Source of the DNA: Sporosalibacterium faouarense
GTDB lineage: Bacteria > Bacillota > Clostridia > Tissierellales > VENL01
Assembly: GCF_016765695.1 (NCBI RefSeq)
Contig: NZ_JAETGO010000089.1
Span: forward strand, 1-64,000
Reading direction: 5' to 3'
DNA: 64,000 nucleotides
The notes under the pieces were generated by a model that saw only the letters and a program-made list of their open reading frames with translations, was not told the origin of the DNA and did no database searches. Each line of letters begins with the position of its first letter. The first letter of the stretch is position 1. The position numbers were made by a program, and so were the translations under genes. This document shows positions 45,459 to 62,092 of this stretch, in pieces.

Positions 45459-45476
45459 GTTATCATAAATGATAAC
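45459..45476. promoter_or_regulatory. 18-bp palindrome, shared with the kinase leader
   Basis: GTTATCAT-AA-ATGATAAC, perfect. Its inner 16 bp TTATCATAAATGATAA recurs exactly at 29619-29634. It overlaps a second dyad ATAAC-N4-GTTAT (45450-45463). It lies 82 bp before the YqeG gene. Confidence 0.55.
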
Positions 45477-45557
45477 TAAATCATAATATGCAAAATTTAA
45501 ATAATTTAGTGACATACTATAAAGTAGAGTAAAAATAATACTATAAGGAGTGTGACT

Positions 45558-46073: not shown

Positions 46074-46238
46074 ATTGATGAAAAAAAACGAAAAAAATTA
46101 TTAAAAAGAAGGACATTTTAATATGCTAGTAGAATTAATCTATTAGTGGGAAAAGTAAATGTAAATAGGACTTTAGTACTAAAAAATGCATAAAAAGACA
46201 ATTTTCTTATAAATTGAGCTTTATTAGTGGGTGAATAT

Positions 46239-47921
46239 ATGGTTAATAACAAAAAGATGAGATTAGGAGACCTATTGGTTTCTGTTGGTAAGATAAGTGA
46301 AGAACAGTTGATGGAAGCTTTAAAAGAACAGAAATCTACAGGAAAAAAAATTGGAGAATTATTAGTTGAAAAGGGGTATGTTACTGAATTAGATATAATT
46401 CAAGTATTGGAATTCCAATTGGGAATTCCTCATATAAATTTGGACAAGTATTATATTGATCCTGAAATACCACGATTGATAAATGAGAATTTGGCAAGAA
46501 GAAGCGTTCTTATACCTATTAAAAAAATTGAAGATACCCTAACAGTAGCAATGGCAGATCCTCTTAATATATTTGCAATAGATGATGTTAAAATATCAAC
46601 AGGGTTACAGGTAGAGCCAGTAATTTCAACTAAAGAGAATATTGTAAATGCCATTGATCAATATTATGGTAAACAAAGTGCTGAAAAAGCAATTGAGGAT
46701 TTTAAGAAACAATATGATATGGATAATATTGAAGACTTGGATGATGATATATTAAATGAGATCAATAATGCACCGGTTGTTAGACTTGTTAATTCAATAA
46801 TAAAGCAAGCAATTAAGTCAAAGGCTAGTGATGTGCACATAGAGCCATTTGAAGATAAAGTGAGAGTAAGGTTTAGAATAGATGGAGAACTTCAAGAAAT
46901 AATGTCACCAGCTAAATCTACACACTCAGCCATTGTGACTAGAATAAAAATAATGGGTAAAATGAATATTGCTGAAAAAAGGGTTCCACAGGATGGTAGA
47001 GTAGAGACTAGTATAGATGGAAGAGAAGTTGATTTGCGTTTGTCAGTTTTACCAACAGTTTTCGGAGAAAAGATTGTTATAAGGTTGTTAGATAGAAGTA
47101 GCTTCTTATTATCAAAGAAGCAGCTTGGATTTACGGATACAAACTTAACTCGTTTTAATCAAATGTTAAGGAATCCTAATGGTATCATATTAGTAACAGG
47201 ACCAACTGGTAGTGGTAAAACTACTACATTGTATACAGCCCTCAGGGAATTTAATAGTATTAATAGGAATATTATAACTGTTGAAGACCCAGTGGAGTAT
47301 AGGTTAGATGGAGTTAACCAGGTACAGGTTAATGTAAAAAGTGGATTAACCTTTGCAACAGGTCTTAGAGCTATTTTAAGACAAGATCCAGATATAGTTA
47401 TGATTGGTGAAATTAGAGATAGAGAGACTGCTCAAATTGCTGTAAGAGCAGCTATAACTGGACACTTAGTGATTAGTACAATGCATACTAATGATGCACC
47501 TTCAACTACAGCAAGATTATTGGATATGGGAATAGAACCATATTTGATTACTTCTTCAGTTGCAGGAGTAGTTGCTCAAAGACTAGTAAGGAAAATATGT
47601 GATAATTGTAAGATTGAATATAAGCCTACAGAATCAGAAAGAAATCTACTAGATATAGATGAAAATATTTTGCTTTATAAAGGAAAAGGATGTAGTAAAT
47701 GCTATAATACTGGGTATAAAGGAAGAATGGCTATACATGAAATTTTACATATGACCAATGAAATTAAAGATTCGATAAGTATAGGAGCTAGCGTGAATTC
47801 AATTAAAGATAGTGCTATAAAACAAGGAATGATTACCCTTGAGGATAATTGTAAAGAACTAGTAGCTCAAGGAATTACAACCGTAGAAGAATTATTAAAA
47901 GTGACTTATACACTAGAGTAG
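46239..47921 (+). CDS. pilB: Type IV pilus extension ATPase PilB with tandem MshEN domain
   Basis: 560 residues. Two N-terminal motifs matching the c-di-GMP-binding MshEN pattern are seen. The first has R8-L9-G10, L13-V14, G17, I19, L24, A27-L28, Q31; the second has I38-G39, L42-V43, G46, V48, I53, L57, Q60. The GspE-type ATPase follows, with Walker A GPTGSGKTTTLY, an Asp box, Walker B VMIGEIRDRETA and the His box GHLVISTMHTND. A C-terminal zinc tetracysteine has CDNC and CSKCYNTGYKGR. It powers pilin assembly at the membrane. The ATG at 46239 lies after GTGGGTGA. First gene of the pilus operon. Confidence 0.94.
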   Translation: MVNNKKMRLGDLLVSVGKISEEQLMEALKEQKSTGKKIGELLVEKGYVTELDIIQVLEFQLGIPHINLDKYYIDPEIPRLINENLARRSVLIPIKKIEDTLTVAMADPLNIFAIDDVKISTGLQVEPVISTKENIVNAIDQYYGKQSAEKAIEDFKKQYDMDNIEDLDDDILNEINNAPVVRLVNSIIKQAIKSKASDVHIEPFEDKVRVRFRIDGELQEIMSPAKSTHSAIVTRIKIMGKMNIAEKRVPQDGRVETSIDGREVDLRLSVLPTVFGEKIVIRLLDRSSFLLSKKQLGFTDTNLTRFNQMLRNPNGIILVTGPTGSGKTTTLYTALREFNSINRNIITVEDPVEYRLDGVNQVQVNVKSGLTFATGLRAILRQDPDIVMIGEIRDRETAQIAVRAAITGHLVISTMHTNDAPSTTARLLDMGIEPYLITSSVAGVVAQRLVRKICDNCKIEYKPTESERNLLDIDENILLYKGKGCSKCYNTGYKGRMAIHEILHMTNEIKDSISIGASVNSIKDSAIKQGMITLEDNCKELVAQGITTVEELLKVTYTLE

Positions 47922-47930
47922 GTGATTAAC

Positions 47931-48989
47931 ATGATAACTATGAAAGAACTATTGACAAAGACAGTTGAATTAAATGCATCAGATCTTCATATTTCCGTTG
48001 GCACACCGCCAATTATTAGAATTAATGGTCAGTTAAATAGATATGGAGAAGAAATCCTAATGCCAGATGATAACTTAAGATTAGTAAAAGAGATTGCCAA
48101 TGAAGAACAGTTTAGTTCTTTGGAAGAGAAAGGCGAAATAGATATGTCAATTTCTCAAACGGGCTTAGGTAGATTTAGAGTTAATATTTTTAAACAACGG
48201 GGAACCTATGGTATGGCAATAAGGTCCGTTGCCTTGAGTATACCAACTATTGAGGAATTAGGGCTTCCTCCAATAATAAAAGAGTTTTCTAGAAAACAAA
48301 GAGGGCTAATTCTTGTAACTGGTCCAACTGGAAGCGGTAAGTCAACTACTTTAGCTTCGATGATAAATAATATTAATAGAGAAAGAAACTGCCATATATT
48401 AACTTTAGAAGACCCTATAGAGTATCTTCATAAACACAAGAAGAGCATAGTAAATCAAAGAGAAATTGGGAGTGATTCTAAGTCTTTTGCAAATGCTTTA
48501 AGATCAGCATTAAGACAAGATCCAGATGTAATTTTAGTTGGAGAAATGAGAGACTTAGAGACCATGGGAATAGCTATAACTGCAGCTGAAACGGGACACC
48601 TTGTATTATCTACATTGCATACAATTGGAGCTGCACAGACGGTAGATAGAATCATAGATGTTTTTCCAGCCCATCAAAGACAACAAATTGTGATGCAGTT
48701 ATCTACTGTTTTAATAGGTGTAGTATCTCAACAATTACTTCCTAGAAAAGATGGAAGTGGAAGAGAATTGGCAATGGAGAGAATGGTAGCTACTACAGCT
48801 ATAAGAAACTTAATCCGTGAAGGGAAAACTCATCAAATACAAACTGCTATTCAAACTGGAACTAAATTTGGTATGAAGACCATGGATAATTCTATTATCG
48901 ATTTATATAGAAAAGGGCTGATTTCAATGGATACAGCACTAACATATGCAGTAGATAGAGATTTAGTAAAGAGATATATAGGATTATAA
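47931..48989 (+). CDS. pilT: Type IV pilus retraction ATPase PilT
   Basis: 352 residues. The PAS-like N-domain ends near NASDLHISVGTPPIIRINGQL. Walker A is GPTGSGKSTTLAS, and the Walker B region is DPDVILVGEMRDLETMGIAIT, followed by the His box GHLVLSTLHT. The AIRNLIREGKTHQIQ segment is typical of PilT. It drives pilus disassembly and twitching. An AGGTGA five bases upstream favours ATG 47931 over GTG 47922 and ATG 47940. It starts ten bases after pilB ends. Confidence 0.94.
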   Translation: MITMKELLTKTVELNASDLHISVGTPPIIRINGQLNRYGEEILMPDDNLRLVKEIANEEQFSSLEEKGEIDMSISQTGLGRFRVNIFKQRGTYGMAIRSVALSIPTIEELGLPPIIKEFSRKQRGLILVTGPTGSGKSTTLASMINNINRERNCHILTLEDPIEYLHKHKKSIVNQREIGSDSKSFANALRSALRQDPDVILVGEMRDLETMGIAITAAETGHLVLSTLHTIGAAQTVDRIIDVFPAHQRQQIVMQLSTVLIGVVSQQLLPRKDGSGRELAMERMVATTAIRNLIREGKTHQIQTAIQTGTKFGMKTMDNSIIDLYRKGLISMDTALTYAVDRDLVKRYIGL

Positions 48990-49022
48990 TACTATAGATG
49001 GAAAATGAGAAAGGGTGAAAAT

Positions 49023-50234
49023 ATGCCCAATTATAAATATACTGCTTTAGATAAATTAGGCAAAAAAGTGGACAAAACTTATTCTGCAAATAGCAGGGAA
49101 GAAGTATTAAACATGCTTCGTCAAAATGGATATTATCCTGTTAATATTGAGATAGATAGTAAGGCTAAAGATATTAAGAAATTCAGTTTACCTTCTAAGG
49201 TTAAAACTAAGGATATAGCTATATTTTGTCGACAGTTTTATGCTATGTTAAATGCAGGAGTTCCTATAATAAATTGTCTAGAGATTCTTAGAAATCAAAC
49301 TGAAAATAAAAAGTTAAAGAAAACAGTTGGAGAAGTATATGAGGATGTTCAAAAAGGTATGACATTTTCTGAATCTCTAAAAAATCACAGAAATGTTTTT
49401 CCAGATTTGTTAATACACATGGTTGAAGCTGGAGAGGTAAGTGGTAATCTAGACATTATTATGGATAGAATGGCTTCACATTTTGAAAAGGAAAACAAAA
49501 TAAATAATAAAATCAAAAGTGCTATGACATACCCCATAATTTTAGGAATCGTTGCAGTTATAGTTGTTATTTTCTTACTAACGGTAGTAATGCCTACCTT
49601 TATTGGTATGTTTGAAGGCTCTGGAGTTCCTTTGCCATTACCTACAAGAATCTTACTATCAATAAGTGATTTTCTTAAAGGGTATTGGTATTTGGTTCTA
49701 ATAATTACCATAGGACTTTTCTATATACTTACTAAATATATGCAAACTGATAAGGGTAAGTATGCTATGGACAGATTTAAGTTTAGGATTCCTGTTTTAA
49801 GTAGTACTACAAAGAAAGTAGTAACTTCTAGATTTACTAGAACAATGTCAACCTTACTTGCCAGTGGCGTTTCGTTAATAGAAGCATTGGATATTGTGTC
49901 TAGAGTTGTAGGAAATAAGATAGTATCCGATGGTCTGCAGCAATCAAAAGAGGATGTTAGAAAGGGAATAAACCTAGCCGAGCCAATCGGTAATATAGGA
50001 ATATTTCCACCAATGGTAGTATCTATGATAAAGATAGGTGAAGAATCAGGAGCCCTTGATGATATTTTGGACAAGACTGCAAATTTTTATGACGAAGAAG
50101 TAGAAACAGCAATGCAAAGATTGACAACTTTATTAGAGCCAATAATGATAGTTTTTATGGCTGTGATTATTGGATTTATAGTAATAGCTATGATGCTACC
50201 CATGTTTGATATGGTGAATACTATAGATTATTAG
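49023..50234 (+). CDS. pilC: Type IV pilus inner-membrane platform PilC
   Basis: 403 residues. After the N-terminal YKYTALDKLGKKV segment come two T2SSF repeats: the first (about 65-190) contains FCRQFYAMLNAGVPI and MTYPIILGIVAVIVVIFLL, the second (about 265-390) contains RFTRTMSTLLASGVSL and IMIVFMAVIIGFIVIAMMLPMF. PilC couples PilB or PilT to pilin movement. ATG 49023 is preferred to 49005, since AAAGGGTGA lies between them. Confidence 0.93.
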   Translation: MPNYKYTALDKLGKKVDKTYSANSREEVLNMLRQNGYYPVNIEIDSKAKDIKKFSLPSKVKTKDIAIFCRQFYAMLNAGVPIINCLEILRNQTENKKLKKTVGEVYEDVQKGMTFSESLKNHRNVFPDLLIHMVEAGEVSGNLDIIMDRMASHFEKENKINNKIKSAMTYPIILGIVAVIVVIFLLTVVMPTFIGMFEGSGVPLPLPTRILLSISDFLKGYWYLVLIITIGLFYILTKYMQTDKGKYAMDRFKFRIPVLSSTTKKVVTSRFTRTMSTLLASGVSLIEALDIVSRVVGNKIVSDGLQQSKEDVRKGINLAEPIGNIGIFPPMVVSMIKIGEESGALDDILDKTANFYDEEVETAMQRLTTLLEPIMIVFMAVIIGFIVIAMMLPMFDMVNTIDY

Positions 50235-50352
50235 TGTAATTATTAGTAAATAACAGATAATTGATATAATTATGTATCTTAATTGTATGTAAAGATTATG
50301 TTATTTTAAAAGCAAAGATTTATCTAGTACATTTTGAAAGGAGGTGAAAGAT

Positions 50353-50739
50353 ATGATAAATGCCATTAATAAGAAAATTAGAAATAGAAAGGGTTTTACA
50401 TTAATAGAGCTTATAGTTGTAATAGCTATATTAGGAATTTTAGCTGCAATAGCGGTACCAAGGTTAAGTGGATCAACTAAAAAAGCTGAAGAAAGTGCAG
50501 ACCAGGCCTCTATAAGAACAATGGATTCAATGATATCTATTGCAATAGCAGAAGGAAACTTAGATATTGAGTCCGACACAGAGGCAAGTGACGTAAAAGA
50601 TGCTTTAGTTCCAAAATATCTAAAAGATATCCCTAAATCAAAAACTGGAGATGGATGGAGTATATCTATAGATACCACGAATGATGTGGTTACTGTTACA
50701 GTTCATTCTGGAACTGGTACAGCAGATTGGCCAAATTAG
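50353..50739 (+). CDS. pilA: Major type IV pilin
   Basis: 128 residues. The class III leader MINAINKKIRNRKG is cleaved before FTLIELIVVIAILGILAAIA, with the conserved E5 for assembly and a long hydrophobic helix. The globular part is short and ends TVTVHSGTGTADWPN without a cysteine pair. It is the only pilin here of major-pilin form. A near-perfect AAAGGAGGTGA precedes the ATG, suggesting high translation. The prepilin peptidase gene follows. Confidence 0.92.
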   Translation: MINAINKKIRNRKGFTLIELIVVIAILGILAAIAVPRLSGSTKKAEESADQASIRTMDSMISIAIAEGNLDIESDTEASDVKDALVPKYLKDIPKSKTGDGWSISIDTTNDVVTVTVHSGTGTADWPN

Positions 50740-50763
50740 AAATATAAAGATAATAATAAGTGA

Positions 50764-51513
50764 ATGGAAGATTTTATGATCATAATAATTTTTACTTTAG
50801 CACTACTAATAGGTTCATTCCTAAACGTATGCATTTATCGCATACCTAATAAACAATCAATTGCATATCCGCCATCACACTGCCCAAAGTGTGATACCAG
50901 CTTGAAACCGGTAGATTTAATACCGGTTATCAGCTATTTTTTGAACAAAGGTAAATGCAGATACTGCGGGGAGCCCATATCCCCTCAGTATCCAATTGTT
51001 GAGATTATGAATGGACTGCTTTATTTAATTTTATACTTAAAGTTTGGTTTGTCTTTAATATTTGTTAAATATGCCATATTGACAAGTCTCCTTATAGTCG
51101 TTAGCTTTATAGACTATAAATTTGAAATAATTCCTAATGGATTGATGATTTTTGGGATTATCATTGGACTTATATTTAATATAATGAACTTTAACACAAG
51201 TTTTGTAAATGGTATTATAGGACTATTTTTAGGTGGAGGTATTTTTTTAATCATTGCTTTTATTGGACCAATGGGTGGTGGAGACATTAAGCTTATGGGA
51301 GTCTTAGGACTTATTTTTGGAGGGAAAGGTATACTTTTAATAGCATTGCTATCCTTCATAATTGGGGCAATATCCTCAATAATTTTAATATTAATAGGTG
51401 TAAAAGGTAGAAAAGATACAATTCCTTTTGGCCCTTTTATATCAATAGCTACAGTTGTTACGATGCTATACGGTAATGAGATTTTAAGAATGTATTTAGA
51501 AATAATTCTATAG
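50764..51513 (+). CDS. pilD: Prepilin peptidase / N-methyltransferase
   Basis: 249 residues. An N-terminal helix IGSFLNVCIYRIP is followed by the methyltransferase-associated tetracysteine motif (CPKC and CRYC). Six more membrane helices carry the two catalytic aspartates, in FIDYKFEIIPNG and MGGGDIKLMG. It cleaves prepilin leaders and methylates the new N-terminus. The start is uncertain between 50764 and the ATG at 50776, since the upstream AAGTGA is weak. Confidence 0.93.
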   Translation: MEDFMIIIIFTLALLIGSFLNVCIYRIPNKQSIAYPPSHCPKCDTSLKPVDLIPVISYFLNKGKCRYCGEPISPQYPIVEIMNGLLYLILYLKFGLSLIFVKYAILTSLLIVVSFIDYKFEIIPNGLMIFGIIIGLIFNIMNFNTSFVNGIIGLFLGGGIFLIIAFIGPMGGGDIKLMGVLGLIFGGKGILLIALLSFIIGAISSIILILIGVKGRKDTIPFGPFISIATVVTMLYGNEILRMYLEIIL

Positions 51514-51532
51514 AAGTACTTGAGGTGATATA

Positions 51533-52597
51533 TTGTTTTGGAATAAATTATTAGCTATAGATTTAGGAAATAAAAATATAAAAATCGTTGAAGGAAAGCA
51601 ACAGGGTAATCAAGTGATTATAGAAAAAGCTACATCTGTGGCAACTCCTTTGCATTCATATAATGATGGACAGATATTAGATAAAGAAAGCTTAAAAAGT
51701 ATCATTCATGGAACATTAGAGGCTTCTAATATTAAAGCCAAAAAGACCATATGTTCAATTGAAAGCACGTCTATAATTACCAGAGAGATAACACTTCCTA
51801 ATGTTAAGGAGGGAGAAATGGACTCTATGGTTAAATATGAGGTTGAACAGTATTTACCAATAATGCTTGATGATTATGTTGTGGAATATAAGGTATTAAA
51901 TGAGTTTGAAGAAGAAGGAGTTAGTAAATCTAGGATTCTTGTTGCTGCCATACCTAAGCTCATAGTAGAGAACTTTTTGGAGTTATTCAAAGAGATCAAC
52001 TTAAAACCTTATGTATTAGATGTAAATTCAAATGCAATATCAAAAGTATTTTTTAAAAAGCTAAAGGTTAATCAAGATGAATCTAACTTGGAAAAGACCA
52101 TAGGTGTTATAGATATAGGACATAATTTTATTAATGTAGATATTATTTCAAAGGGTATAGTTCAATTTAGTCGACTTATTAACTCAGGCGGGAAAGACAT
52201 AGATATCAATATAGCTAATCACTTTAATCTTTCTTTGGAAGAAGCTGAAAAAAAGAAGATTAATGACTCAAATATTGAAAAAAATATAGGTCTTGCCCCA
52301 TCTACAGAGATATTAAATGATGCGGTTAAATCAAGTATAGATAATTGGATAGCTGAAATAAATAGAGTTTTTCAATATTATACAACACGAAGTACAGGAA
52401 ATAAAATAGACAAGCTATATTTACATGGTGGCAGTTCCAGTTTGAAGGGAATAGCACCCTATATGCATAGTCTTCTAAATATGCCTGTAGAGCAAATTAA
52501 AGACATCGACAAAATAAAGCTTTCAAAGACCAGTGAAAACATAAAAATAGCAAACTATTTAAATGCAATAGGAGCTATTATAAGGTTAGGCAGGTGA
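51533..52597 (+). CDS. pilM: Type IV pilus assembly protein PilM
   Basis: 354 residues of the actin-like ASKHA fold. The N-terminal LLAIDLGNKNIKIVEG is the phosphate-1 loop, GVIDIGHNFINVDII the phosphate-2 loop, and LYLHGGSSSLKGI the adenosine motif. It forms the cytoplasmic ring that binds the PilN tail; the following pilN supports this. TTG start with GAGGTGA upstream. Confidence 0.9.
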   Translation: MFWNKLLAIDLGNKNIKIVEGKQQGNQVIIEKATSVATPLHSYNDGQILDKESLKSIIHGTLEASNIKAKKTICSIESTSIITREITLPNVKEGEMDSMVKYEVEQYLPIMLDDYVVEYKVLNEFEEEGVSKSRILVAAIPKLIVENFLELFKEINLKPYVLDVNSNAISKVFFKKLKVNQDESNLEKTIGVIDIGHNFINVDIISKGIVQFSRLINSGGKDIDINIANHFNLSLEEAEKKKINDSNIEKNIGLAPSTEILNDAVKSSIDNWIAEINRVFQYYTTRSTGNKIDKLYLHGGSSSLKGIAPYMHSLLNMPVEQIKDIDKIKLSKTSENIKIANYLNAIGAIIRLGR

Positions 52598-52601
52598 TAT
52601 C

Positions 52602-53159
52602 ATGAAGGATTTAAACTTTTTTTCTCCCTATATTAAAGTAAACAAAAGCTCCAAGATTAAGAAGACCTATGTTTTTATAACAGTAATTTCTTTAGCATTA
52701 ATTTTTGGTGGAGCTCATTTTTGGACTATTTACAGGATGAATAATATTGAAAAGAACATAACTGAAATGGAAGATTTTCTTAAATCTAATGATGTAGTTG
52801 ATGATATTAAAAATCTCAATGAGAAAAAAAGAGAAGTAGATATAATGAACAAATACTATGATTTAGCTTTAATAATAAATGAAGACATGGAGAGTGTGGA
52901 TAGATTAGGAACAGGGATATTATCTAAAATAACAAATGCTCTTCCAGAAGATATAACCTTTGACATGATATCTATGGACATCAATAATATACAAATCCAA
53001 GGAATATCTAGGAGTAGAGTTTCAATAGCTGAACTTCAGCATAATTTAAAGAATTCTAATATTTTTAGTAAGGTATATGTTATAGATATTTCCAAAACTT
53101 CAAAGGAAATTGATAGATTTGTATTTGCTTTGAAGTGTACATTGAAGGATGTGAATTAG
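52602..53159 (+). CDS. pilN: Type IV pilus assembly protein PilN
   Basis: 185 residues. The short cytoplasmic N-terminus MKDLNFFSPYIK is the PilM-binding type, followed by one transmembrane helix (about residues 22-42), a coiled coil (MNNIEKNITEMEDFL) and a ferredoxin-like domain with NALPEDITFDMISMDINN and IQGISRSRVSIAEL. It bridges PilM to PilO across the membrane. Sits four bases after pilM. Confidence 0.87.
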   Translation: MKDLNFFSPYIKVNKSSKIKKTYVFITVISLALIFGGAHFWTIYRMNNIEKNITEMEDFLKSNDVVDDIKNLNEKKREVDIMNKYYDLALIINEDMESVDRLGTGILSKITNALPEDITFDMISMDINNIQIQGISRSRVSIAELQHNLKNSNIFSKVYVIDISKTSKEIDRFVFALKCTLKDVN

Positions 53160-54404
53160 ATGACGCTGAGTAAACGAGAAAAAGTTATGATTGCCTTTTT
53201 AGTAATATTAATAATCCTTGCTGGATTTTATATAATTTATTTTAAACCTCAGTTAGAAGAGATAGCCACATTAGATAAAGAAGCCGAAGCATTAAAGCAA
53301 AGAGTTGACATTACTAAGACAAACATATCTTTAACAAATCAAGTTGACGAAAAATATAAGAAGCTTAATGAAAAAGTGAATGCTATAGTTTCAGACTTTT
53401 TTCCATCAATAAATCAGGAAAAATTGATTGTTATATTAGATGAATTTATAAATTCATCTGATGTTGAAGCTAAATCAATGAACTTTACTGAGACTGAGTT
53501 AACATCTATAAAAGAATCAGTAGGAAATAATAATTCATCTGATTATGAGAATCAAATAAATGATATAGTTGGAGAATTTAAAGGGGATGTTAAGATAGTT
53601 GATAGCAATAACATCTCTAAAAGTAGTTCAAGTAATAATAATGAACAAGAACAAAAAGAAATTACTTTAAGAAATATGACCACTACTATTTTTTTTCAAG
53701 GAAATTATAATGATGTTGTGGAATTTTTAAGTAGAATTGAAGAATATAATAAAAAAATAATTATTAAAAATTTAAATTTAGTTAAAGAAGAAGAGAACAA
53801 TCAAATAACTGGAAGTGTCATTTTAAAATTCTATGCTGTTCCAAAGTTAGAGTTACAGGATATAGAATATTATCAATGGGATTATGATAATAAATATGGA
53901 AAGGATAATCCATTTTATGATAATGGATTAAGCAAATCTAATGGTAGTGAAAGCAATGGTAATAATGTAATTACTGTAACGGATGGCTATGACTTTGGTA
54001 TGTGGGTCAAACCCATAACTTCAGATAATACTACTGTTGGTGTTGGTTACTATGACGATAAAACAAGAGAGACATATGTATATGCTGATAATATAGGAGT
54101 AGAACCTGTAAAGATAACTTTTAAGAAAGAAAACAATAAATATTTATATAGATATAGTACAAGTGCCGAGGCTTATCCAAAGGATGAAGAAGACTTCCAA
54201 GAGTTTGACCCTAAAGGGAATTTTATAAGCATGAAAATCTTTACAAATAAAAGAAATAGTAGTAATGATATATCAGGGGCAAAAGTTACTATCGATAATA
54301 TAACTGATTTAAAGCTAGTGGTAGATATACCAGATGATGATGAGGAAAGACCTAGAGTTAACATCGTATCTGGTGAAGGAGATATTCTAATTAATAGAAA
54401 TTAA
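53160..54404 (+). CDS. pilO: PilO-like pilus protein with C-terminal extension
   Basis: 414 residues. A single N-terminal transmembrane helix (IAFLVILIILAGFYIIYF) is followed by a coiled coil (LDKEAEALKQRVDITKT) and a PilO-type domain (about 90-220, TTTIFFQGNYNDVVEFLSRI). PilO usually ends near 200 residues; here about 190 more follow a low-complexity linker rich in S, N and G. They form a probable beta-rich domain (GYDFGMWVKPI, TYVYADNIGVEPVKITF). The ATG follows the pilN stop with no gap. The extension is presumed extracytoplasmic. Confidence 0.75.
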   Translation: MTLSKREKVMIAFLVILIILAGFYIIYFKPQLEEIATLDKEAEALKQRVDITKTNISLTNQVDEKYKKLNEKVNAIVSDFFPSINQEKLIVILDEFINSSDVEAKSMNFTETELTSIKESVGNNNSSDYENQINDIVGEFKGDVKIVDSNNISKSSSSNNNEQEQKEITLRNMTTTIFFQGNYNDVVEFLSRIEEYNKKIIIKNLNLVKEEENNQITGSVILKFYAVPKLELQDIEYYQWDYDNKYGKDNPFYDNGLSKSNGSESNGNNVITVTDGYDFGMWVKPITSDNTTVGVGYYDDKTRETYVYADNIGVEPVKITFKKENNKYLYRYSTSAEAYPKDEEDFQEFDPKGNFISMKIFTNKRNSSNDISGAKVTIDNITDLKLVVDIPDDDEERPRVNIVSGEGDILINRN

Positions 54405-54418
54405 CTAAGGTGAGATTT

Positions 54419-55246
54419 ATGAAAAAAATTCTTATGAATAATAAAGGAATTACATTAATTGAAATTATTGTTACAATAGCCATACTATCTATTATTATTA
54501 TACCTGTGTTTTCCATGTTTCTTACCACAGCTAAGGCCAATAGATATTCAGATGATAAAATGAAATCTACTATTATTGGTCAGAAGGTTATGGAGGATAT
54601 TAAAAGTTCTATGGTCATAGAAGAAGGTACTAATAATAGAAATATAGATGATTATTCCGTTGAAATTAATATAGAAGCAGTCTCAGATTATATGTTCCCA
54701 GAGGCTAGTTTATCAGGAGAAGCAGATATTAATGACTATGACATTAGGATTGTAATTAGTGAAGAGGATGATAGTGGAAGTATGAATTTTAACTATGATA
54801 TCTATAGAAATTACCCTGTAGACGAAAACCTTAATAACGATAGCTCTTTTACTAATATAATTCCTAGTGATGAAGCTACTATTAATCTAAAGTACGATGG
54901 CAATATTATTATTTACGATCGTCCTAATAAGGAAAATAGTGTATCATTTAGTATAACCGATGATCCGAAAATCAGGTTAGAAGTCTATAGAGACACAGAT
55001 ATTACTGTAAATGCTGAAAACACTGTTAGTAGTGATGAATTAGTAATATATATGATGAAATCATCGGACTCAAATGCAGAATATAACTTAAAGAATCGTG
55101 GTGGAAATATAAAAACTATAAATAATATTAACATAAGTGATGGAAATAACAATGAAGCTAGAGTCTATAAGATAAATATTAAGGTATTTAGTAAACAAGG
55201 AGAAAAAATTGAAGAGATTACAGGATATAAGACATTCCTTAAGTAG
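54419..55246 (+). CDS. Minor pilin-like protein (PilV-type position)
   Basis: 275 residues. The prepilin signal MKKILMNNKG is cleaved before ITLIEIIVTIAILSIIIIPV, with E5 retained. The following domain of ~240 residues is acidic and longer than a usual pilin. It is probably a minor pilin in the priming complex. TAAGGTGA precedes the ATG at 54419. Confidence 0.78.
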   Translation: MKKILMNNKGITLIEIIVTIAILSIIIIPVFSMFLTTAKANRYSDDKMKSTIIGQKVMEDIKSSMVIEEGTNNRNIDDYSVEINIEAVSDYMFPEASLSGEADINDYDIRIVISEEDDSGSMNFNYDIYRNYPVDENLNNDSSFTNIIPSDEATINLKYDGNIIIYDRPNKENSVSFSITDDPKIRLEVYRDTDITVNAENTVSSDELVIYMMKSSDSNAEYNLKNRGGNIKTINNINISDGNNNEARVYKINIKVFSKQGEKIEEITGYKTFLK

Positions 55247-55257
55247 GATGTGATTTT

Positions 55258-57462
55258 ATGATTAAAAGAAAAATTAATAATAACAAAGGCTCAACCCTTG
55301 TAATGTTATTAATAATACTTACTATATTAATAATGCTAGGTACAGTTATTATGTCTTTGGCTGTAACTAATTATAAGATGAAGATTGTAAACAGTAATTC
55401 AAAACGTAATTTTTATTTTGCTGAGGCGGGAATAGACGAGGCATATGGAATAATAGGAGAAGCTGTTGACGAAGGGATTTCTATGGGGAATGAAGCCGTA
55501 GTAACTTTCATGAATGAAGACTTATCAAAACAAAATATCGAGGAAGCTATTGATAGTATGGAGAATGGTGACTTTTCAAATCCCTATATAGTATATTTGA
55601 ATGAAGATGGTTCTTTAAATATGGATGAAATAAATAAGAAGCAAAATCAGATATTTAAAGCAACTTTTAAGAGCTATATAACTAGTGAAAGTAACGTGTT
55701 TGATGGGATATCTGAACATTCAAACTATAAAATAAAATCTACTAAGAATAATAAACCTATAGTTTATTGTACTCCTGCTAATCCAAGTTTTAATGAAGAT
55801 GTGTTGGAATTTACAATTAATTCAAATTTTACTGAAGAAAATATTGAAAGAAGATTATCTGCAAAGTTTAATTTGATTGTTCCAGACTATAATTCACCAT
55901 ATTATTCCCAAACAACTGTTGCAACAGTAAATAGGAATGTAGGATGGTCTAAAGCAATAGCAGCAGAGGGTGATTTACAAGCTAATGGTGGAAACATTAC
56001 AATAAATGGTTCGGTATATGTTAAAGGAAAATCAAGGGAATTTGGTGGAATTTCTACTATTGGACAGAATACTAATTTAGTGATAAATGGGAATGTTGCA
56101 ACACAAAATAATATTCAAACTGCATCTTCTAATTCTCAAATAGATATTAATGGAAATGCTTATGCAGGAAATTTTAGAACTAAGGCAAAGGATCAAAATG
56201 GAAATAAGATAATAGATTCAAGTTTATTTATAAGAAAAGGTGCAGACGAAAAAGGCGGGTCTTTATATACCCTTGATGATCTCTCTTTGAATGCAGAAAG
56301 TTCTTTAATAGATATTGAAGACAGTTATTATGGTGTATCCGATGGTTCTCACTCTTCTACCCATGATAGCTCCAGTAGTATTATTATTAACTCAAATGAT
56401 ATTGGTTTAGAAGGTGGTTCACAGTTAACAATTGAAGGAAAGGCCTTTATACCTGGGACATCATATATAACTTTGTTAAATCCTAATAAAAAGTATCAAA
56501 CAGGTGAGTCAGTTTCCGTAAAGGGAAATTATAGAGCTTATTCATATCCACTTACTGAAAATGATCCCAATACGGGTGAACCTCCTCAAACTCAGGATGG
56601 TCATAGCTTAAAACAAGACAATGTAGAATTTGAATATTATAATCCACTATTTTTAGTTAGTCAATATTATGATTCACATAGTCAAGCTCAAGACATGAAG
56701 GTAATAGATAAGAGTAAATATTTTATGGCATATGAAAAGGAATATGAGGATAATCAGCTTAATTTAGGCGGAATAAATGGAATAAACATTATTCACCCAG
56801 AGGTAACGCAAAACCTAGGAGTATTAATTCATAATAATCAGGTTAAGGATGCAACCTCTGCAATTCGAATATTAAGTGGACTGGAAGATGTAAAACCAAA
56901 ATACATTATAGAAGCTAATTATATGGGAGTAGATGAAAGTAAAATTTCTGATGGGGATTTAGAATTTGATAAAGAGAAAACCGTTTCTTACTGGGTAAAA
57001 TTTGATGATTTACCTTCACCAACAATGACTCCAACAATTGGAACTGATAGAGAATTAGTATTATTAGATAGGAATATCTATACTGATTACGCAATTATAG
57101 GTCCTAACGCAAATAGTATACCTGAAGGAACCGTGAAGATTCAATTAGGAAGTAATGATTTTTTAAAGGGACTTATAATTACTAAAGGAAATGTTTATTT
57201 CTGTGGAGACATAAATTTTAGAGGAACTGTTATTTCTAATAAAGACATAATCTTCTTTGATTCTAATAATAAACATTTTACCTATGATGAGAATTATGTA
57301 GCAGGTCTAATTATAAATGAAAATCTATCGGACTATTTTAATGATAGCTACGATGATTATATAGAAATTACTACTAATGCCGATATAAAAGAAATCGGAG
57401 TAGCATCTAATATTGTTAGAGATAAAGCAATAAGACTTATTAATTGGAGCATTGAGAAGTAG
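55258..57462 (+). CDS. Large PilX-like minor pilus component
   Basis: 734 residues. A prepilin-like N-terminus MIKRKINNNKGSTLVMLLII carries M rather than E at mature position 5, as in PilX/GspK-type tip subunits, followed by FYFAEAGIDEAYGII, typical of PilX. The middle (about 220-350) has repeated short NGNVAT/NGNAYAG-like strands suggesting a beta-solenoid. The C-terminal part contains FLKGLIITKGNVYFCGDINFRGTVI. A pilus tip or initiation role is likely; the function of the solenoid region is unknown. Confidence 0.72.
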   Translation: MIKRKINNNKGSTLVMLLIILTILIMLGTVIMSLAVTNYKMKIVNSNSKRNFYFAEAGIDEAYGIIGEAVDEGISMGNEAVVTFMNEDLSKQNIEEAIDSMENGDFSNPYIVYLNEDGSLNMDEINKKQNQIFKATFKSYITSESNVFDGISEHSNYKIKSTKNNKPIVYCTPANPSFNEDVLEFTINSNFTEENIERRLSAKFNLIVPDYNSPYYSQTTVATVNRNVGWSKAIAAEGDLQANGGNITINGSVYVKGKSREFGGISTIGQNTNLVINGNVATQNNIQTASSNSQIDINGNAYAGNFRTKAKDQNGNKIIDSSLFIRKGADEKGGSLYTLDDLSLNAESSLIDIEDSYYGVSDGSHSSTHDSSSSIIINSNDIGLEGGSQLTIEGKAFIPGTSYITLLNPNKKYQTGESVSVKGNYRAYSYPLTENDPNTGEPPQTQDGHSLKQDNVEFEYYNPLFLVSQYYDSHSQAQDMKVIDKSKYFMAYEKEYEDNQLNLGGINGINIIHPEVTQNLGVLIHNNQVKDATSAIRILSGLEDVKPKYIIEANYMGVDESKISDGDLEFDKEKTVSYWVKFDDLPSPTMTPTIGTDRELVLLDRNIYTDYAIIGPNANSIPEGTVKIQLGSNDFLKGLIITKGNVYFCGDINFRGTVISNKDIIFFDSNNKHFTYDENYVAGLIINENLSDYFNDSYDDYIEITTNADIKEIGVASNIVRDKAIRLINWSIEK

Positions 57463-57471
57463 GAGGTGACC

Positions 57472-58035
57472 ATGAAAAAAATAAAATCAAATCTGATGTT
57501 AAGTGATCAAGGGATAACTTTGATTGAGCTTTTAGTAACGTTAGCTATTGTAGGAATAGTATTAACTATGGTCACATCATTTTTTATAGCAAATCTCAAT
57601 AATTTCAATAGAGCAGAGGACGAGCTGGATTTACAATATGAAGCCCAAGCTACCATGAATTACATTACTGAAATTGCAATTCAAAGTAGAAGTATCGTTT
57701 CATTAGAAGATAGTGAGGGAGTTAATCAATTATCCTATGATGGAAATGATAAAATAGAACTAGGAGAGATAGCTTTTGACTTTGAATATATTGATGATGA
57801 AACAGATAATGAATCTATAAGGGATGAAAGCTTTAGATTGGACTTAGATAATAGAGTTTTAATCCATGATGGGAAGGAAGTAGGTAGATACATAAACAAT
57901 GTTAAAGTTAATCCAATCCCAAGTGGTACTGAGTTTTCTAAGGCAAGGGGATTAAATATTGTTATAGAAATGTCTGAGGATAATAATACAAAACGTATTG
58001 AGAGTCAGGTATATTTTAGAAATTATGAAGAGTAA
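57472..58035 (+). CDS. PilW-like minor pilin
   Basis: 187 residues. The leader ends SDQG before ITLIELLVTLAIVGIVLTMV, with E5 retained, then LQYEAQATMNYITEIAIQSR, typical of PilW/PilJ-like minor pilins. GGAGGTGA precedes the ATG at 57472. With the two genes before and the VWA gene after, it completes a minor pilin set resembling the pilV-W-X-Y1 clusters. Confidence 0.8.
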   Translation: MKKIKSNLMLSDQGITLIELLVTLAIVGIVLTMVTSFFIANLNNFNRAEDELDLQYEAQATMNYITEIAIQSRSIVSLEDSEGVNQLSYDGNDKIELGEIAFDFEYIDDETDNESIRDESFRLDLDNRVLIHDGKEVGRYINNVKVNPIPSGTEFSKARGLNIVIEMSEDNNTKRIESQVYFRNYEE

Positions 58036-58050
58036 AGGAGGATGGTGCAA

Positions 58051-61000
58051 ATGTTTAGCAATCTAAAAAAGTACAAGCTATTACCTATAATTGCTCTAGT
58101 ATTCATGCTTTTATTATCACAAATTAATATTAACACAGTAATGGCAACTAGCAGTTCACAAGGAGAAGATAATAAGACTGAGGAAGCTATATTAAAACCT
58201 CTAAGACAAGCAATTGGACTTCAAGAAAAAGATGGAGAGTTAATAGAAGTAGAAAAAAATGAATTTAAAGAAGGAGAGGAATTTATACTAGATTATAAAA
58301 TACAGCCAAGGGATATACAATTAGATGAAGTATCTGAGGATGACACTTCTATTGATAAAGAAATTGTATTGGTTATGGATGTCTCTGGTAGTATGGCCGA
58401 TGAAATAGAGTTTACATTTAATGAGGATAATGATTCAGAAGAAAACGAATTTACCGGATTTTATGAAGGGAACAGTGTTAAAAATCTAGAAATACTATTA
58501 AAAGGGAATCAGCATGGAAATAGAATCACTGATTTTAAAGTAGACTTTGATAAACCAGATGATATGAGTAGAGGAATGTCATACTTTATTTGTTATTCAA
58601 AACAGGATCCTGAAACTGTAAAAGATGAGCTATATAGATATAATGGTTATTTTAGTTATCTATCACCCTATAGAGGAAAAATTGTAAACAGAAATACTAA
58701 AACATATCAATTTTCTAATATGACAACGCTATTCGGAAATTATTTCCATGAAAATAATGATTATAATGTTTATATTGCAACTTTAAATAGAAGAGATGAG
58801 ATAGTAGGACTTGCTATGTCCTCTTCAACATCTCAAGCTAATCATGACAGACACTCTAATAATGAAAGAAATGAGTATAGTAAGTTAGAAGTAATGAAAA
58901 TAGTTTCAAAGAATTTTATTGACAAATTAAAAGGTGACTCTACTGTAAAGGTATCTGTAATTCCTTATAGTAATAGGGCAACCACTGAAAAATATAGTGG
59001 GAATAGCTTTGCTAGACCAATTGTGAACAGTCAGTATGATGAAATAATTAATCAGATAGATGGATTTAATGCTGATGGCGGTACAAACATAGGTGATGGA
59101 CTTAGAAGGGCCTTATATACTTTAAGTAATGAAAGCACAAGTAAATATGTAATTCTAATGACCGATGGTGTACCTACTGCGTTTTCTTTTGATGATTTAG
59201 ATTATTCTGACTATTGGTTTTACTCCGCAATAGGATTAGTTTATCATGGAAATAATTATGGAACGGCTACCCATATTGATAATGCAGATTTTCTATTAGG
59301 AGATGGAAGAGCAGAAGATTATTTCGTAAATTATGGTAGTGAAGATGAGCATAGTTATTCAAAAAATTATTCAAAAGAAATCGCAGCTATGTTGAAAGAG
59401 TCAAATAAGGATATAAAGACCTTTATGATAGGATTTAGTAATGGAGCAGATCCAAGTAAGCTTAATGAAATTGCCAATTCTGCCGATGGATATTATAAGG
59501 AAGCAAAAAATGGTAACGCTTTAGACGAAGTATATCAACAACTTGCAGATGCAATAAGTGCTAGCTTCTCAATACCAGAGATAGAATTTGAAGAGACTAT
59601 TCCAAAAGGAATGACAGTAGTAGATACTGAGGGACTTACAGATGTGAAAATCAATAAAGATTCTCAGGATAACACAGTTGTAAGAGGAAAGGCTCCAAGT
59701 GTGGCTTTTAATCTAGTAGAAAAAGTAGATCAAGCAACAGGAGAGATTATTAGATATTATCATGCAAAACCCACTGGTTTTAGAATAAAATTAAAGGCTG
59801 ATGCAGGTAAATATACTTTAAGTCAAGACAATCTTAAGTCCTATATTGAGTATGAAGATATTGATGACTCAGGACTTAGAAGAGAAAATATATCGAAACA
59901 AGAAATCAATGTATACAATGAAGAACCTGCAATGGTATCAGTGTCATTAATTGAGAATGAAGATGGAAGCTATGACTTAAGTGTAACAATAGATAATCCC
60001 GTAAACTTTACTATAAAAGATGATAAAGAAAATGAATTAATGAAGAAAGATACCTTTGACGAATCACATCAAGGTCAATACGAGACCTATGATGAGCCTA
60101 AAACATTTACAAAGAAATTTACTATTAGTGGAGAAAATCTAGCTGAATTAATAAATGAATCTTCAAAGTTGTTCTTTACTGGTACTGATACATCGGGTAA
60201 TCTAATTGAACAACCAATTTCACTTATAAATACTGAGATTTCAGAGGCAAAGGATTATATCCATGATGATAATATGAGACCAGTGACTCTTAAAATAGCA
60301 ACCGATGAAGGAGCTGTTGTTGAAGATTTAATAATTAACGGTTTATCAGACAGTGACTTTATTGAACAAATAACTGATAAGGGTGTATATAAACATAATA
60401 ATGCATTCTTAAAAGATGGTGATAATGATATTGAAGTTACAATTAGAAATAGCTATGGTAATGTCACTACTCAAAGATTTACCTTAGATTTGGATGCAGA
60501 ATCTCCTTTAGTGGATTCCTCTTTTGACTATGATAAGAGTAATGATAAAATAGAATTGAAGTTAAGTTTTAATGAGAGGGTCAATGAAGTATCTTTGATT
60601 GAGTATGTGGAAAAAGGCGATGGAAGTGGTGAGCTAGAAGAAAGAATTTTATCTCAAAAGACTATTGAGGATATGGGAGAAGAAGGATCTCTTACTTCTA
60701 CTATTTTACTAGATGAAGAAAGGTATGAAAAAGAACTATATATTAAGGCTAGAGATATAGCTGGAAATATAAGAATTTCTTCTATTCCAAATCCTGATAC
60801 GGCTCAATTAAATTCAAGTAATCTTATAAGTCATAGTATCTATACTGGATATGATTTAGAAGAAGGCGAAGAATTAAATATTGTAAGTGGTTTCAAAACT
60901 AAGTTTAGAGTGAGTATGGTGCTATCAGATATCGAAACTAATTTAAAAATAAAACTTAATAGTGAAAACAATGAAAATATTTCAGAAATCAAAAGCGTCA

Positions 61001-61278
61001 AGTTTTCTCTATATAGGGCAGATGATATGGATCTGATAGAAGATAGTTTAAATGTAATAGTTGATGAAAATAACGATAACTATTATAACTTAGAGATAAG
61101 TCTTAATGAAAGTTTGACTGATGAAAATTTAATTCTTGAGTATGAATTTGTTCCAGTCTTAAGTAATGAAGTGGATGACGCCGAAAAAGTAGAGCTTATT
61201 AATAGTGTTGGTTTTGAAAATTCTGCAGATGAATTAGAGGGTAAGGTTAATGTGGTTCCTTTGCCAATTATAGACTAA
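58051..61278 (+). CDS. Secreted VWA-domain protein, candidate pilus tip adhesin
   Basis: 1075 residues. A Sec signal peptide (basic NLKKYK, hydrophobic core, cleavage near A32) starts the protein. The VWA domain has a complete MIDAS: D110-S112-S114 in DVSGS, T345 in GGTNIGDG and D372 in TDG. D110 and T345 are ~235 residues apart, whereas simple VWA domains have about 60-70, so ~165 residues are inserted after the first MIDAS loop, and another ~60 follow TDG. Ig-like beta modules fill the rest. There is no LPxTG or C-terminal helix, so it is not wall-anchored; its place beside minor pilins suggests a PilY1-like tip role. ATG 58051 fits AAAGGAGG. Confidence 0.75.
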   Translation: MFSNLKKYKLLPIIALVFMLLLSQININTVMATSSSQGEDNKTEEAILKPLRQAIGLQEKDGELIEVEKNEFKEGEEFILDYKIQPRDIQLDEVSEDDTSIDKEIVLVMDVSGSMADEIEFTFNEDNDSEENEFTGFYEGNSVKNLEILLKGNQHGNRITDFKVDFDKPDDMSRGMSYFICYSKQDPETVKDELYRYNGYFSYLSPYRGKIVNRNTKTYQFSNMTTLFGNYFHENNDYNVYIATLNRRDEIVGLAMSSSTSQANHDRHSNNERNEYSKLEVMKIVSKNFIDKLKGDSTVKVSVIPYSNRATTEKYSGNSFARPIVNSQYDEIINQIDGFNADGGTNIGDGLRRALYTLSNESTSKYVILMTDGVPTAFSFDDLDYSDYWFYSAIGLVYHGNNYGTATHIDNADFLLGDGRAEDYFVNYGSEDEHSYSKNYSKEIAAMLKESNKDIKTFMIGFSNGADPSKLNEIANSADGYYKEAKNGNALDEVYQQLADAISASFSIPEIEFEETIPKGMTVVDTEGLTDVKINKDSQDNTVVRGKAPSVAFNLVEKVDQATGEIIRYYHAKPTGFRIKLKADAGKYTLSQDNLKSYIEYEDIDDSGLRRENISKQEINVYNEEPAMVSVSLIENEDGSYDLSVTIDNPVNFTIKDDKENELMKKDTFDESHQGQYETYDEPKTFTKKFTISGENLAELINESSKLFFTGTDTSGNLIEQPISLINTEISEAKDYIHDDNMRPVTLKIATDEGAVVEDLIINGLSDSDFIEQITDKGVYKHNNAFLKDGDNDIEVTIRNSYGNVTTQRFTLDLDAESPLVDSSFDYDKSNDKIELKLSFNERVNEVSLIEYVEKGDGSGELEERILSQKTIEDMGEEGSLTSTILLDEERYEKELYIKARDIAGNIRISSIPNPDTAQLNSSNLISHSIYTGYDLEEGEELNIVSGFKTKFRVSMVLSDIETNLKIKLNSENNENISEIKSVKFSLYRADDMDLIEDSLNVIVDENNDNYYNLEISLNESLTDENLILEYEFVPVLSNEVDDAEKVELINSVGFENSADELEGKVNVVPLPIID

Positions 61279-61300
61279 AAAACAACTGGGAGTGATGCCT

Positions 61301-61573
61301 GTGAAACTTCATAATTATATGGAAAATACTGTTTTTCATGTACTTAATAACTTATTGTTAAAACGTAATGATATATGCACCTGTGAGAAGTGTAGAATGG
61401 ATATTGCTGCTATTGCTTTAAACAATCTTCCTACTAGATATGTTGTGACTGAAAAAGGAGAGCTTTATACTAAGCTCAATGAAATGGAAATACAGTTTGA
61501 AGCAGATATAATTAAAGAATTAGTTAGGGCAATAGAGAAGGTTTCTAGGGCTACTAAACATGATGTGGAATAA
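61301..61573 (+). CDS. comFB: ComFB-family protein
   Basis: About 90 residues. It matches ComFB in size and form: NYMENTVFHVLNNLL, a cysteine cluster CTCEKC, LNNLPTRYVVTEKGELY and a C-terminal helix IIKELVRAIEKVSRA. ComFB proteins were named for a late competence operon; recent work on cyanobacterial and other members reports binding of cyclic dinucleotides. GTG 61301 is favoured because GGGAG sits eight bases upstream; GTG 61292 or ATG 61295 are alternatives. It is the second-last gene of the pilus operon. Confidence 0.82.
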   Translation: MKLHNYMENTVFHVLNNLLLKRNDICTCEKCRMDIAAIALNNLPTRYVVTEKGELYTKLNEMEIQFEADIIKELVRAIEKVSRATKHDVE

Positions 61574-61582
61574 GAGGATATT

Positions 61583-62092
61583 ATGAGTAAAAATGTAGTT
61601 CTAATTGGATTTATGGGAACTGGTAAGACTACTATAGGCAAGATAATTGCTCAAAAAATTAACTATGATTTTATAGATACTGATAGATATATTGAAGAAA
61701 AATTCAATATATCTATCAAGGGTATCTTTGAAAGTTATGGAGAAGAGTATTTTAGAGAGCTTGAGAAAAGAGCTATTGAAGAGATTTCTTCTAGAGAATT
61801 TAGTGTGATTTCAACTGGTGGAGGAGTAATACTAAATAATGATAACATAATTAATTTAAAAGAAAAGGGAATAATTTTTTTATTAAATGGGAGTGTTGAA
61901 ACAATAGTCAATAATTTAAGTAACTCTAGAAACAAGCGTCCTCTTTTATCAGAGAATAATTGGACTGAGAAGCTAGTATGCTTGTTAGAGAAACGTAAGA
62001 ATATGTATATTAGTAGTGCAGATTATATAATTGATATTAATGATAAAAGCTTAAATATGTTGGCACAGGAAATAATAAACCATTTTAATTGA
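61583..62092 (+). CDS. aroK: Shikimate kinase
   Basis: 169 residues. Walker A is GFMGTGKTTIGK near residues 9-20, the shikimate-binding DTDRYIEE follows, then FRELEKRAI, STGGGVILN and RPLL, all standard for AroK. It phosphorylates shikimate in aromatic amino-acid synthesis. Its link to the pilus operon is positional only; it follows comFB by nine bases and ends in a terminator. Confidence 0.93.
   Translation: MSKNVVLIGFMGTGKTTIGKIIAQKINYDFIDTDRYIEEKFNISIKGIFESYGEEYFRELEKRAIEEISSREFSVISTGGGVILNNDNIINLKEKGIIFLLNGSVETIVNNLSNSRNKRPLLSENNWTEKLVCLLEKRKNMYISSADYIIDINDKSLNMLAQEIINHFN

Follow-up and report, generated by a model that had tools for sequence, protein, structure and literature searches.

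We have found that the 64,000-nucleotide stretch of Sporosalibacterium faouarense DNA analysed here (positions 1 to 64,000 of contig NZ_JAETGO010000089.1; hereafter the window) carries at 46239-61573 what is, judged by its gene content, a complete monoderm type IVa pilus cluster, and that two of its products, the extension ATPase PilB and the small protein ComFB, are candidate sensors of cyclic dinucleotides. The cluster consists of 13 co-directional open reading frames running from PilB (start at 46227 or 46239) to ComFB (stop at 61573), with gaps of 0-24 bp except for 109 bp before the major pilin (Table 1). The type IVa set is present in this one cluster, namely an extension ATPase, PilT, PilC, PilD, PilM, PilN and prepilins, together with a PilO recognized by a weak match and its position; the Pfam and NCBIfam matches to this set bear out the type IV pilus operon that an initial annotation had proposed here.

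Results

PilB carries a tandem MshEN motif for cyclic diguanylate (c-di-GMP) at 46260-46418. Motif I (RLGDLLVSVGKISEEQLMEALKEQ) occupies residues 8-31 and motif II (KIGELLVEKGYVTELDIIQVLEFQ) residues 37-60 when counted from the ATG at 46239, or residues 12-35 and 41-64 from the GTG alternative, and the two are separated by the required spacer of five residues. Scored against the strict consensus quoted in PMC5013675 (papers are cited here by PubMed Central number, and what is attributed to each refers to the portions of its text consulted), motif I agrees at 10 of 11 positions, with lysine replacing an expected hydrophobic residue, and motif II agrees at seven of 11, or at eight of 11 with lysine allowed for arginine as in PMC11731258; PilB does not show the strict consensus in both motifs. 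The profile NF053729 (NCBIfam, c-di-GMP motif, MshE-related) matches PilB residues 12-64 (GTG numbering) at 73.6 bits (E 7.9e-21) against a cut-off of 38, PilB is its sole match in the genome, and this score is the fifth highest among the order's matches listed. By this score the match of PilB to the motif is beyond chance, and the initial annotation's assignment of residues 8-31 and 37-60 to the tandem pattern stands. A regular-expression check of 49 PilB frames found both motifs in only some of the frames, and the profile was preferred. The Pfam family that is itself named MshEN (PF05157) was rejected as proof of c-di-GMP binding: because its match lies at residues 65-151, the C-terminal half, PF05157 alone is no test of the c-di-GMP motif, and NF053729 was used instead.

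Work on related ATPases bears on how this motif may be read. Lysine in place of the first arginine of the motif is accepted and can raise affinity, and a PilF domain with just 45% identity in motif II does not bind (PMC11731258); MshE binds c-di-GMP and not c-di-AMP (cyclic diadenylate; PMC5013675). PilB2 of Clostridium perfringens, a clostridial type IV pilus extension ATPase like the one for which a c-di-GMP input is predicted here, binds c-di-GMP, and raised c-di-GMP leads to more surface pilin (PMC6958937); its dissociation constant is given as 1.34 uM in a table of PMC10519070. The window PilB resembles Vibrio cholerae MshE and the GSPII domains of Thermus PilF in its tandem 24-residue motif and 5-residue spacer, with lysine for arginine accepted in GSPII-B of PilF, but it differs from both in that its motif II also has isoleucine for leucine in RLG, tyrosine in the hydrophobic pair and a further isoleucine for leucine later. 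Because of the motif and NF053729 match, the tolerance of lysine for arginine and the binding by C. perfringens PilB2, a c-di-GMP input to the window PilB is likely, and it would not be new in kind. The organism probably makes both messengers, since its genome has 20 GGDEF matches (two of them in one frame), two matches to the c-di-AMP cyclase domain DAC, and four c-di-GMP-I riboswitches (G000:C17:1309, C81:20812, C55:33567 and C12:53162).

ComFB, the second candidate, was annotated initially as a member of a family with nucleotide binders, and both its PF10719 match (Table 1) and its profile homology to a ligand complex support this. The protein has a CxCxxC motif with a tail His, dimer residues and a Y-V-V-T-E-K-G-E loop; the zinc ligands (CxCxxC plus tail Cys/His) and the dimer residues N, E, D, N and Y, as named in PMC4381287, are all present. 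In an alignment of the window protein with 43 of 54 named clostridial and related ComFB frames (alignment A1), N7, E10, C28, C30, C33, D36, L42, N43, Y49 and G55 are invariant across the 44 sequences and H89 is nearly so. Searched against the PDB, the A1 profile finds 4wai (Bacillus subtilis ComFB) at E 1.9e-14 and 8hja, a Synechocystis CdgR-c-di-GMP complex, at E 6.9e-8; the window sequence by itself finds 8hja at E 0.031. By its organism and name we take the 8hja protein to be Slr1970 (ComFB/CdgR). A predicted model of the window ComFB (mean predicted local distance difference test score, pLDDT, 77; predicted template modelling score 0.69) superposes on 4wai with VIA Z 9.6 and a root-mean-square deviation (rmsd) of 3.1 A over 86 residues, and on 8hja with Z 8.5 and an rmsd of 4.0 A over 87 residues, the next row, of another fold, having Z 6.6. 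After the invariant Tyr, the ComFB stretch Y-V-V-T-E-K-G-E-x-Y resembles Y-A-T-S-E-E-G-A-E-Y of 8hja (in common, Y-x-x-(T/S)-E-x-G), and our guess is that this loop may contact the ligand. We note that the window protein is not of the Bacillus kind as defined by NCBIfam, scoring 40.2 bits against the Bacillus ComFB equivalog NF052654 (cut-off 120), and that its neighbours are the VWA gene and aroK, not the comFA and comFC of a B. subtilis-type operon.

ComFB genes are not placed at random with respect to pil genes. Within the order (Tissierellales) a ComFB match is present in 93 of 249 genomes, in 91 of them above the cut-off, and 68 genomes have both ComFB and a listed PilM. The list of full PilM matches was hand-selected (85 places in 83 genomes of the order, and 129 places in the class outside it) and omits matches covering only profile positions ~183-308 (other actin-like proteins), partial or weak matches and unprinted rows. 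Against this list, 37 of 138 ComFB places in the order, one in each of 37 genomes, follow a listed pilM on its own strand, 4.6-8.7 kb to the 3' side; no ComFB lies within 20 kb of a listed pilM in another orientation, nine share a contig with a listed pilM but at a measurably large distance, and the remaining places have no listed pilM on their contig. The chance of a given place falling in such a 20-kb stretch is 0.0025-0.005 for a genome of 2-4 Mb. Across the class ComFB is present in 112 of 391 genomes. There are 115 ComFB places outside the order, of which 30, from 12 families, fall within 20 kb of a listed PilM, and all 30 are co-oriented with it: at six places in three families the comFB match precedes the pilM match with 57-115 bp between them, at seven comFB lies 1.4-1.6 kb downstream of pilM, and at the others it lies 2.4-14.6 kb downstream (gene context was examined for 20 of the 115). 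With the eight families of the 37 linked genomes in the order, the linkage extends to about 20 clostridial families. If comFB were found at random loci in related genomes, its proposed tie to the pilus would fall; for the pil-linked type the placements, co-oriented in 37 of 37 and 30 of 30 cases and in several arrangements, argue otherwise.

To describe these contexts we examined 120 of the 133 ComFB places in the order with at least 38 bits, the other 13 being contig ends or fragments as judged by eye; two of the 120 gave no ComFB frame (an internal stop each), leaving 118 scored sequences, and four context types (A to D) were assigned by eye. The window type accounts for 46 of the 120 loci, of which 40 have pil genes upstream and six, on contigs beginning close by, have only aroK and/or efp downstream. 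The comFB-aroK-efp layout of the window is repeated in L007 (genome G247, same family) and L164. The loop pattern is present in 42 of the 45 type A (pil/aroK-linked) sequences scored in the order and in none of the 31 type B second copies.

ComFB also tends to occur where there is a retraction ATPase. PilT is found above its cut-off in 100 of 112 ComFB genomes vs 87 of 279 others in the class, and by family in 32 of 33 with ComFB vs 19 of 54 others; these counts are not corrected on the species tree, the cut-off was taken as a best E of ~1e-95, and the 12 ComFB genomes lacking a PilT above it, like the family lists, were read by eye. The two candidate sensors are, moreover, usually paired: in 28 of the 37 linked operons a c-di-GMP motif above the NF053729 cut-off lies 10.8-18.0 kb upstream on the same strand (only those NF053729 places of the order needed for the pairing were used). 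The motif is on other contigs in G200 and G207, scores 37.5, just below the cut-off, in G202, and is without a match in G214, where the PilB N-terminus is degenerate; G211 and G232 have short PilB frames. In genus g63 (G189, G190 and G191; L035/L143, L044 and L088) the PilB frames, of 376-403 aa, are without an MshEN N-domain, so that the comFB place is kept in some operons in which the c-di-GMP domain of PilB has been lost; in G190 comFB has an internal stop.

Other ComFB proteins stand apart from pilus genes. Type B comprises 31 of the 118 scored sequences, which form a single clade (support 99); most have a glutaredoxin gene on one side and, on the other, genes reading by eye as rsmA and rnmV, with DUF1858 nearby; the loop is absent from all 31 and CxCxxC from 20, and the second ComFB of the window genome (L102, G000:C47:30070-30309) is of this loop-less type. 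Types C and D, with neighbour domains named from one representative each, are confined to genus g61. Type C (13 scored, loop in 13) mostly adjoins PilZ, CheD and CheC genes; type D (11 scored, one clade, support 100, loop in none) adjoins a ParA-like ATPase and mostly CheW, FlgM and FlgN. These contexts, which for types C and D rest on the one genus, suggest a wider tie between ComFB and motility machines. The underlying tree (93 columns, 162 rows) leaves 65 of 156 inner branches open, so only clades B and D were used; it omits 10 of the 54 named rows as near-duplicates or as coming from the same genomes, and it uses a loop pattern slightly wider than in the scoring. In g61 we also observe that ComFB follows an S-layer-homology-type gene at L016, L029, L033, L045, L047, L055, L058, L059, L064, L068, L071, L072, L076 and L094, most of which also adjoin genes for PilZ-domain and CheD/CheC/flagellar proteins and not pil genes, and that a second ComFB, mostly with a long open frame, follows the ParA-like ATPase at L073, L077-L080, L086, L087, L089, L093, L095 and L098, where it falls in one clade and is without the TEKGE loop.

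By the profiles used, no pil gene is seen in 27 of the 56 named loci, namely those numbered L192 and above with the exception of L195. A PilD-type peptidase is the only pil gene detected beside comFB in L176, L178-L180, L186, L195, L232, L238 and L239 (some contigs twice). Between yqeG and comFB, L173 and L184 have a prepilin-like gene (about 150-174 aa) as the only pil gene seen there; the pilin pattern missed it, and for this reason a finding of no pil genes can overlook small pilins. A further observation concerns PilM: in family f6 (L144-L148) PilM-family frames of ~540-570 aa occur with no separate PilN detected, which suggests a PilM-PilN fusion type of pilus cluster, and the five genomes have no ComFB match.

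The initial annotation had the operon end with ComFB, and here it requires correction: aroK starts 9 bp past ComFB, and after it come efp and a CD1247-like gene; a scan to 63500 finds a single plus-strand terminator-like site downstream of ComFB, at 63303-63337. Given the 9-bp interval, ComFB probably lies inside the transcript and not at its end, and aroK is probably on the same transcript. The same annotation had noted that no c-di-GMP riboswitch precedes the operon, and that held: at gathering scores no cyclic-dinucleotide riboswitch is found in the whole 64-kb window (only FMN and T-box elements are), and at E<=5 the interval 45400-46400 gives a single RNA match, a chance snoRNA at E 2.1. 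Control of the pilus cluster by a riboswitch was ruled out on this basis; class II c-di-GMP and c-di-AMP riboswitches were searched for in the window only. A promoter scan was uninformative, with 121 matches vs 111.4 (standard deviation 9.9) in shuffled sequence. Elsewhere in the window, an FMN riboswitch lies at 25779-25894 and a T-box leader at 17476-17696, both on the plus strand.

The gene before comFB encodes a VWA-domain protein whose residues 277-385 match 7b7p (entry name: type IV pilus biogenesis protein PilB; E 6.6e-7), and because of this match a role as a pilus tip adhesin is likely. When 58042-61278 of the window is set beside L022, L169 and L170, some lineages have a VWA protein in the slot before comFB and others have S-layer-homology proteins in that part of the cluster, as if there had been an exchange of tip or anchoring proteins.

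Table 1. Genes of the pilus cluster and its flanks in the window, with the basis for each name
Feature	Position	Strand	Basis
yqeG-type HAD phosphatase, conserved upstream flank	45552..46073	+	PF13242 and other HAD families
PilB, extension ATPase	46239..47921 (GTG alternative 46227)	+	T2SSE 469 bits; PF05157 78.6 bits
PilT, retraction ATPase	47922..48989	+	TIGR01420 486 bits (cut-off 319.1)
PilC, platform protein	49005..50234	+	PF00482 239 bits; NCBIfam PilC/GspF equivalogs all below cut-offs
Major pilin PilA	50344..50739	+	N-methylation motif PF07963; TIGR02532 above cut-off
PilD, prepilin peptidase	50764..51513	+	PF06750, PF01478
PilM	51533..52597	+	PF11104 158 bits; TIGR01175 165 bits (cut-off 133)
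PilN	52602..53159	+	PF05137 51 bits
PilO-like alignment protein	53160..54404	+	T2SSM 24.6 bits (under cut-off 27.8); position; same-place homologues in related loci
Minor pilin, PilV-like	54410..55246	+	PF07963 27 bits (cut-off 21)
Large PilX-like prepilin	55258..57462	+	PilX_N 20 bits (under cut-off 25.5)
Minor pilin, PilW-like	57466..58035	+	PF07963 28 bits
VWA-domain protein, 1078 aa	58042..61278	+	VWA_2 34.5 bits
ComFB	61292..61573 (GTG 61292 or ATG 61295)	+	PF10719 93.4 bits (cut-off 25)
aroK, shikimate kinase	61583..62092	+	PF01202 158 bits; often adjoins comFB in related loci
efp, conserved downstream flank	62265..62822	+	translation read as elongation factor P, no family search; same position in related loci

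Discussion

We favour, with moderate confidence, a reading in which this type IVa cluster receives two cyclic-dinucleotide inputs at the protein level, c-di-GMP through PilB and c-di-AMP and/or c-di-GMP through ComFB. In this scheme c-di-GMP bound at the tandem MshEN motif of PilB would license pilus extension. ComFB would be a small zinc-binding dimer that, like its Synechocystis homologue, binds c-di-AMP and/or c-di-GMP and sets either pilus assembly or pil expression, probably by holding or releasing a partner protein according to its ligand; by analogy with Synechocystis and Anabaena, in the latter of which ligand-free CdgR is the active form (PMC13075795), it may be ligand-free ComFB that acts on the partner. 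The gene content, the motif match, the homology, the conserved residues and the conserved linkage are observations, and we infer from them the binding of ligand and zinc, the partner and the direction of control. Protein-level control of this kind had been proposed at the outset, and it is supported in part, given the motif score of PilB, a published binder in PilB2 and the homology of ComFB to a receptor; the part given to ComFB needs qualifying. ComFB is associated with pili, but its action may be neither in cis nor confined to this operon, because there are yqeG loci without detected pil genes, pil clusters without ComFB and a second genomic copy.

Several observations weigh against this reading. 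PilB misses the PilB equivalog TIGR02538 (636.2 vs a cut-off of 675.65) and just passes that of GspE, TIGR02533 (632.9 vs 630.25); the TIGR02538 cut-off is a naming threshold and no defining feature of a pilus, and the name of pilus ATPase rests on the cluster, since PilT, PilM and PilN adjoin. In the ComFB model the pLDDT falls to 53 over residues 51-60, the loop; the superposition Z values are of a size described by the tool as common among helical folds, and Foldseek gives no match at E<=0.001, its top two being 4wai (4.9e-3) and 8hja (0.057), so the relation of ComFB to these structures rests on sequence more than on the model. As to the linkage, 85 of the 115 ComFB places found in the class beyond the order have no listed PilM within 20 kb (at 10 of them the distance is 25 kb to 3.2 Mb, and for 75 the contig, or the whole genome, has no listed PilM), and types C and D sit in chemotaxis/flagellar clusters and not among pil genes. 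The ComFB-negative members of ComFB families are, by eye, mostly PilT-positive, and the association of ComFB with PilT is thus largely one between families or lineages.

Further observations that count against a dedicated pilus role for ComFB also lend some credit to a rather unlikely alternative, that ComFB is a resident of an old neighbourhood (yqeG-comFB-aroK-efp, in some cases with an aroE-like gene), is linked to pil genes by positional inertia and acts elsewhere. In families f25, f42 and f44 (L220, L221, L226-L230 and L236) ComFB adjoins yqeG and no pil genes were detected in the stretch examined, a gene reading by eye as aroE lying between the two in L220, L221 and L229; in G273, G380 and G442 the listed PilM is about 1.0-2.1 Mb from ComFB on the same contig; and loci of several kinds have yqeG, efp and a CD1247-type gene at their flanks. 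Because comFB occurs without pil genes and pil clusters occur without comFB, the yqeG...efp interval looks like an old neighbourhood from which the two were lost or moved separately. Residence in it does not, however, account for the six genomes, from three families, in which comFB sits inside the pil series and immediately precedes pilM (L235 is one of them, and more pil genes accompany comFB there as well as in L171 and L183), nor for the near confinement of ComFB to PilT-bearing lineages. The 20 control loci, picked for PilM without a nearby ComFB, cut both ways: in 12 of them the pil genes are followed by efp and no ComFB intervenes (five, L151, L152, L153, L158 and L163, also have aroK), which speaks against a dedicated role for ComFB and is also not what mere residence predicts. 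The position of comFB within the pil series and its near confinement to PilT lineages lead us to favour a function with the pilus over inertia, though not one exclusively in cis.

It is also possible, if unlikely, that the ComFB of this operon binds no cyclic dinucleotide and is a zinc protein whose part in pilus assembly or competence is structural or redox, binding having been gained by the cyanobacterial branch only. The three Cys and the tail His are conserved as ligands along with the dimer residues, and the stretch of 8hja aligned to CxCxxC has no cysteines, so that the cyanobacterial protein differs exactly at the zinc site; a match to the Bacillus equivalog, albeit far under its cut-off, points the same way. 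Against this stands the loop after the invariant Tyr, which type A has in common with 8hja and which type B has lost throughout, often along with CxCxxC. More improbable still, in our view, is that the cluster serves DNA uptake and that ComFB is a competence factor acting after the pilus. The genome has a ComEC gene, and loss of comFB lowers transformation in Synechocystis (PMC12313861), but no comFA or comFC is among the neighbours examined. Deletion of comFB in B. subtilis is without effect on DNA uptake (PMC4381287), a result that counts against a competence factor and also against the reading we favour.

The known system closest to the one we propose is that of Synechocystis, whose ComFB/CdgR (Slr1970; 8hja) is a sequence homologue and a regulator of piliation with c-di-AMP and c-di-GMP as ligands; it binds c-di-AMP with c-di-GMP competing, and its deletion results in hyperpiliation, less PilN and lower pilM transcript (PMC12313861). 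Cyanobacterial comFB, however, is in an operon with hfq and not in a pil cluster (PMC12313861), and the clostridial protein is about half as long as that of 8hja and differs from it by having the CxCxxC zinc motif. The B. subtilis protein (4wai) shares sequence homology, zinc ligands and dimer residues with the window ComFB, but it is encoded in a comFA-comFB-comFC operon and is without the TEKGE loop, and the window protein falls under the Bacillus equivalog cut-off. In C. perfringens, unlike the window, pilT (cpe1767) lies away from the main pil locus (cpe2277-2286), and a term search of the main text of that paper finds no word beginning comF (PMC6958937).

Both a c-di-GMP-binding PilB from Clostridium and the regulation of cyanobacterial pili by ComFB have thus been published. 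What appears new as an observation is the conserved linkage of comFB to pil genes in Clostridia and the co-location of both candidate sensors. Clostridial comFB-pil clusters are not treated in the open-access literature searched, judged mostly by titles and the starts of abstracts, in keeping with the early remark that ComFB as a clostridial pilus regulator is little described; comFB is listed among the genes of a Clostridium strain (PMC10897056). No function of ComFB had been found in B. subtilis at the time of its 2015 structure, and none has been found since in Firmicutes in the literature searched.

Lastly, we put forward as a tentative extension, which as a whole we consider rather doubtful, that clostridial ComFB may be a general trans-acting cyclic-dinucleotide regulator of surface motility machines, mostly pili and, in g61, flagella and chemotaxis, with a single pilus integrating c-di-AMP, read by ComFB, and c-di-GMP, read by PilB; the form with the TEKGE loop would be the one that senses, and the loop-less paralogues would have changed or lost their ligand. 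The presence of a loop-bearing and a loop-less paralogue in one genome provides a control at the level of residues. The linkage we describe turns ComFB into the subject of a concrete hypothesis, which bears on whether a single pilus responds jointly to c-di-AMP and c-di-GMP, and the company that ComFB keeps with pilus genes in many Clostridia makes a role in pilus control easy to test.

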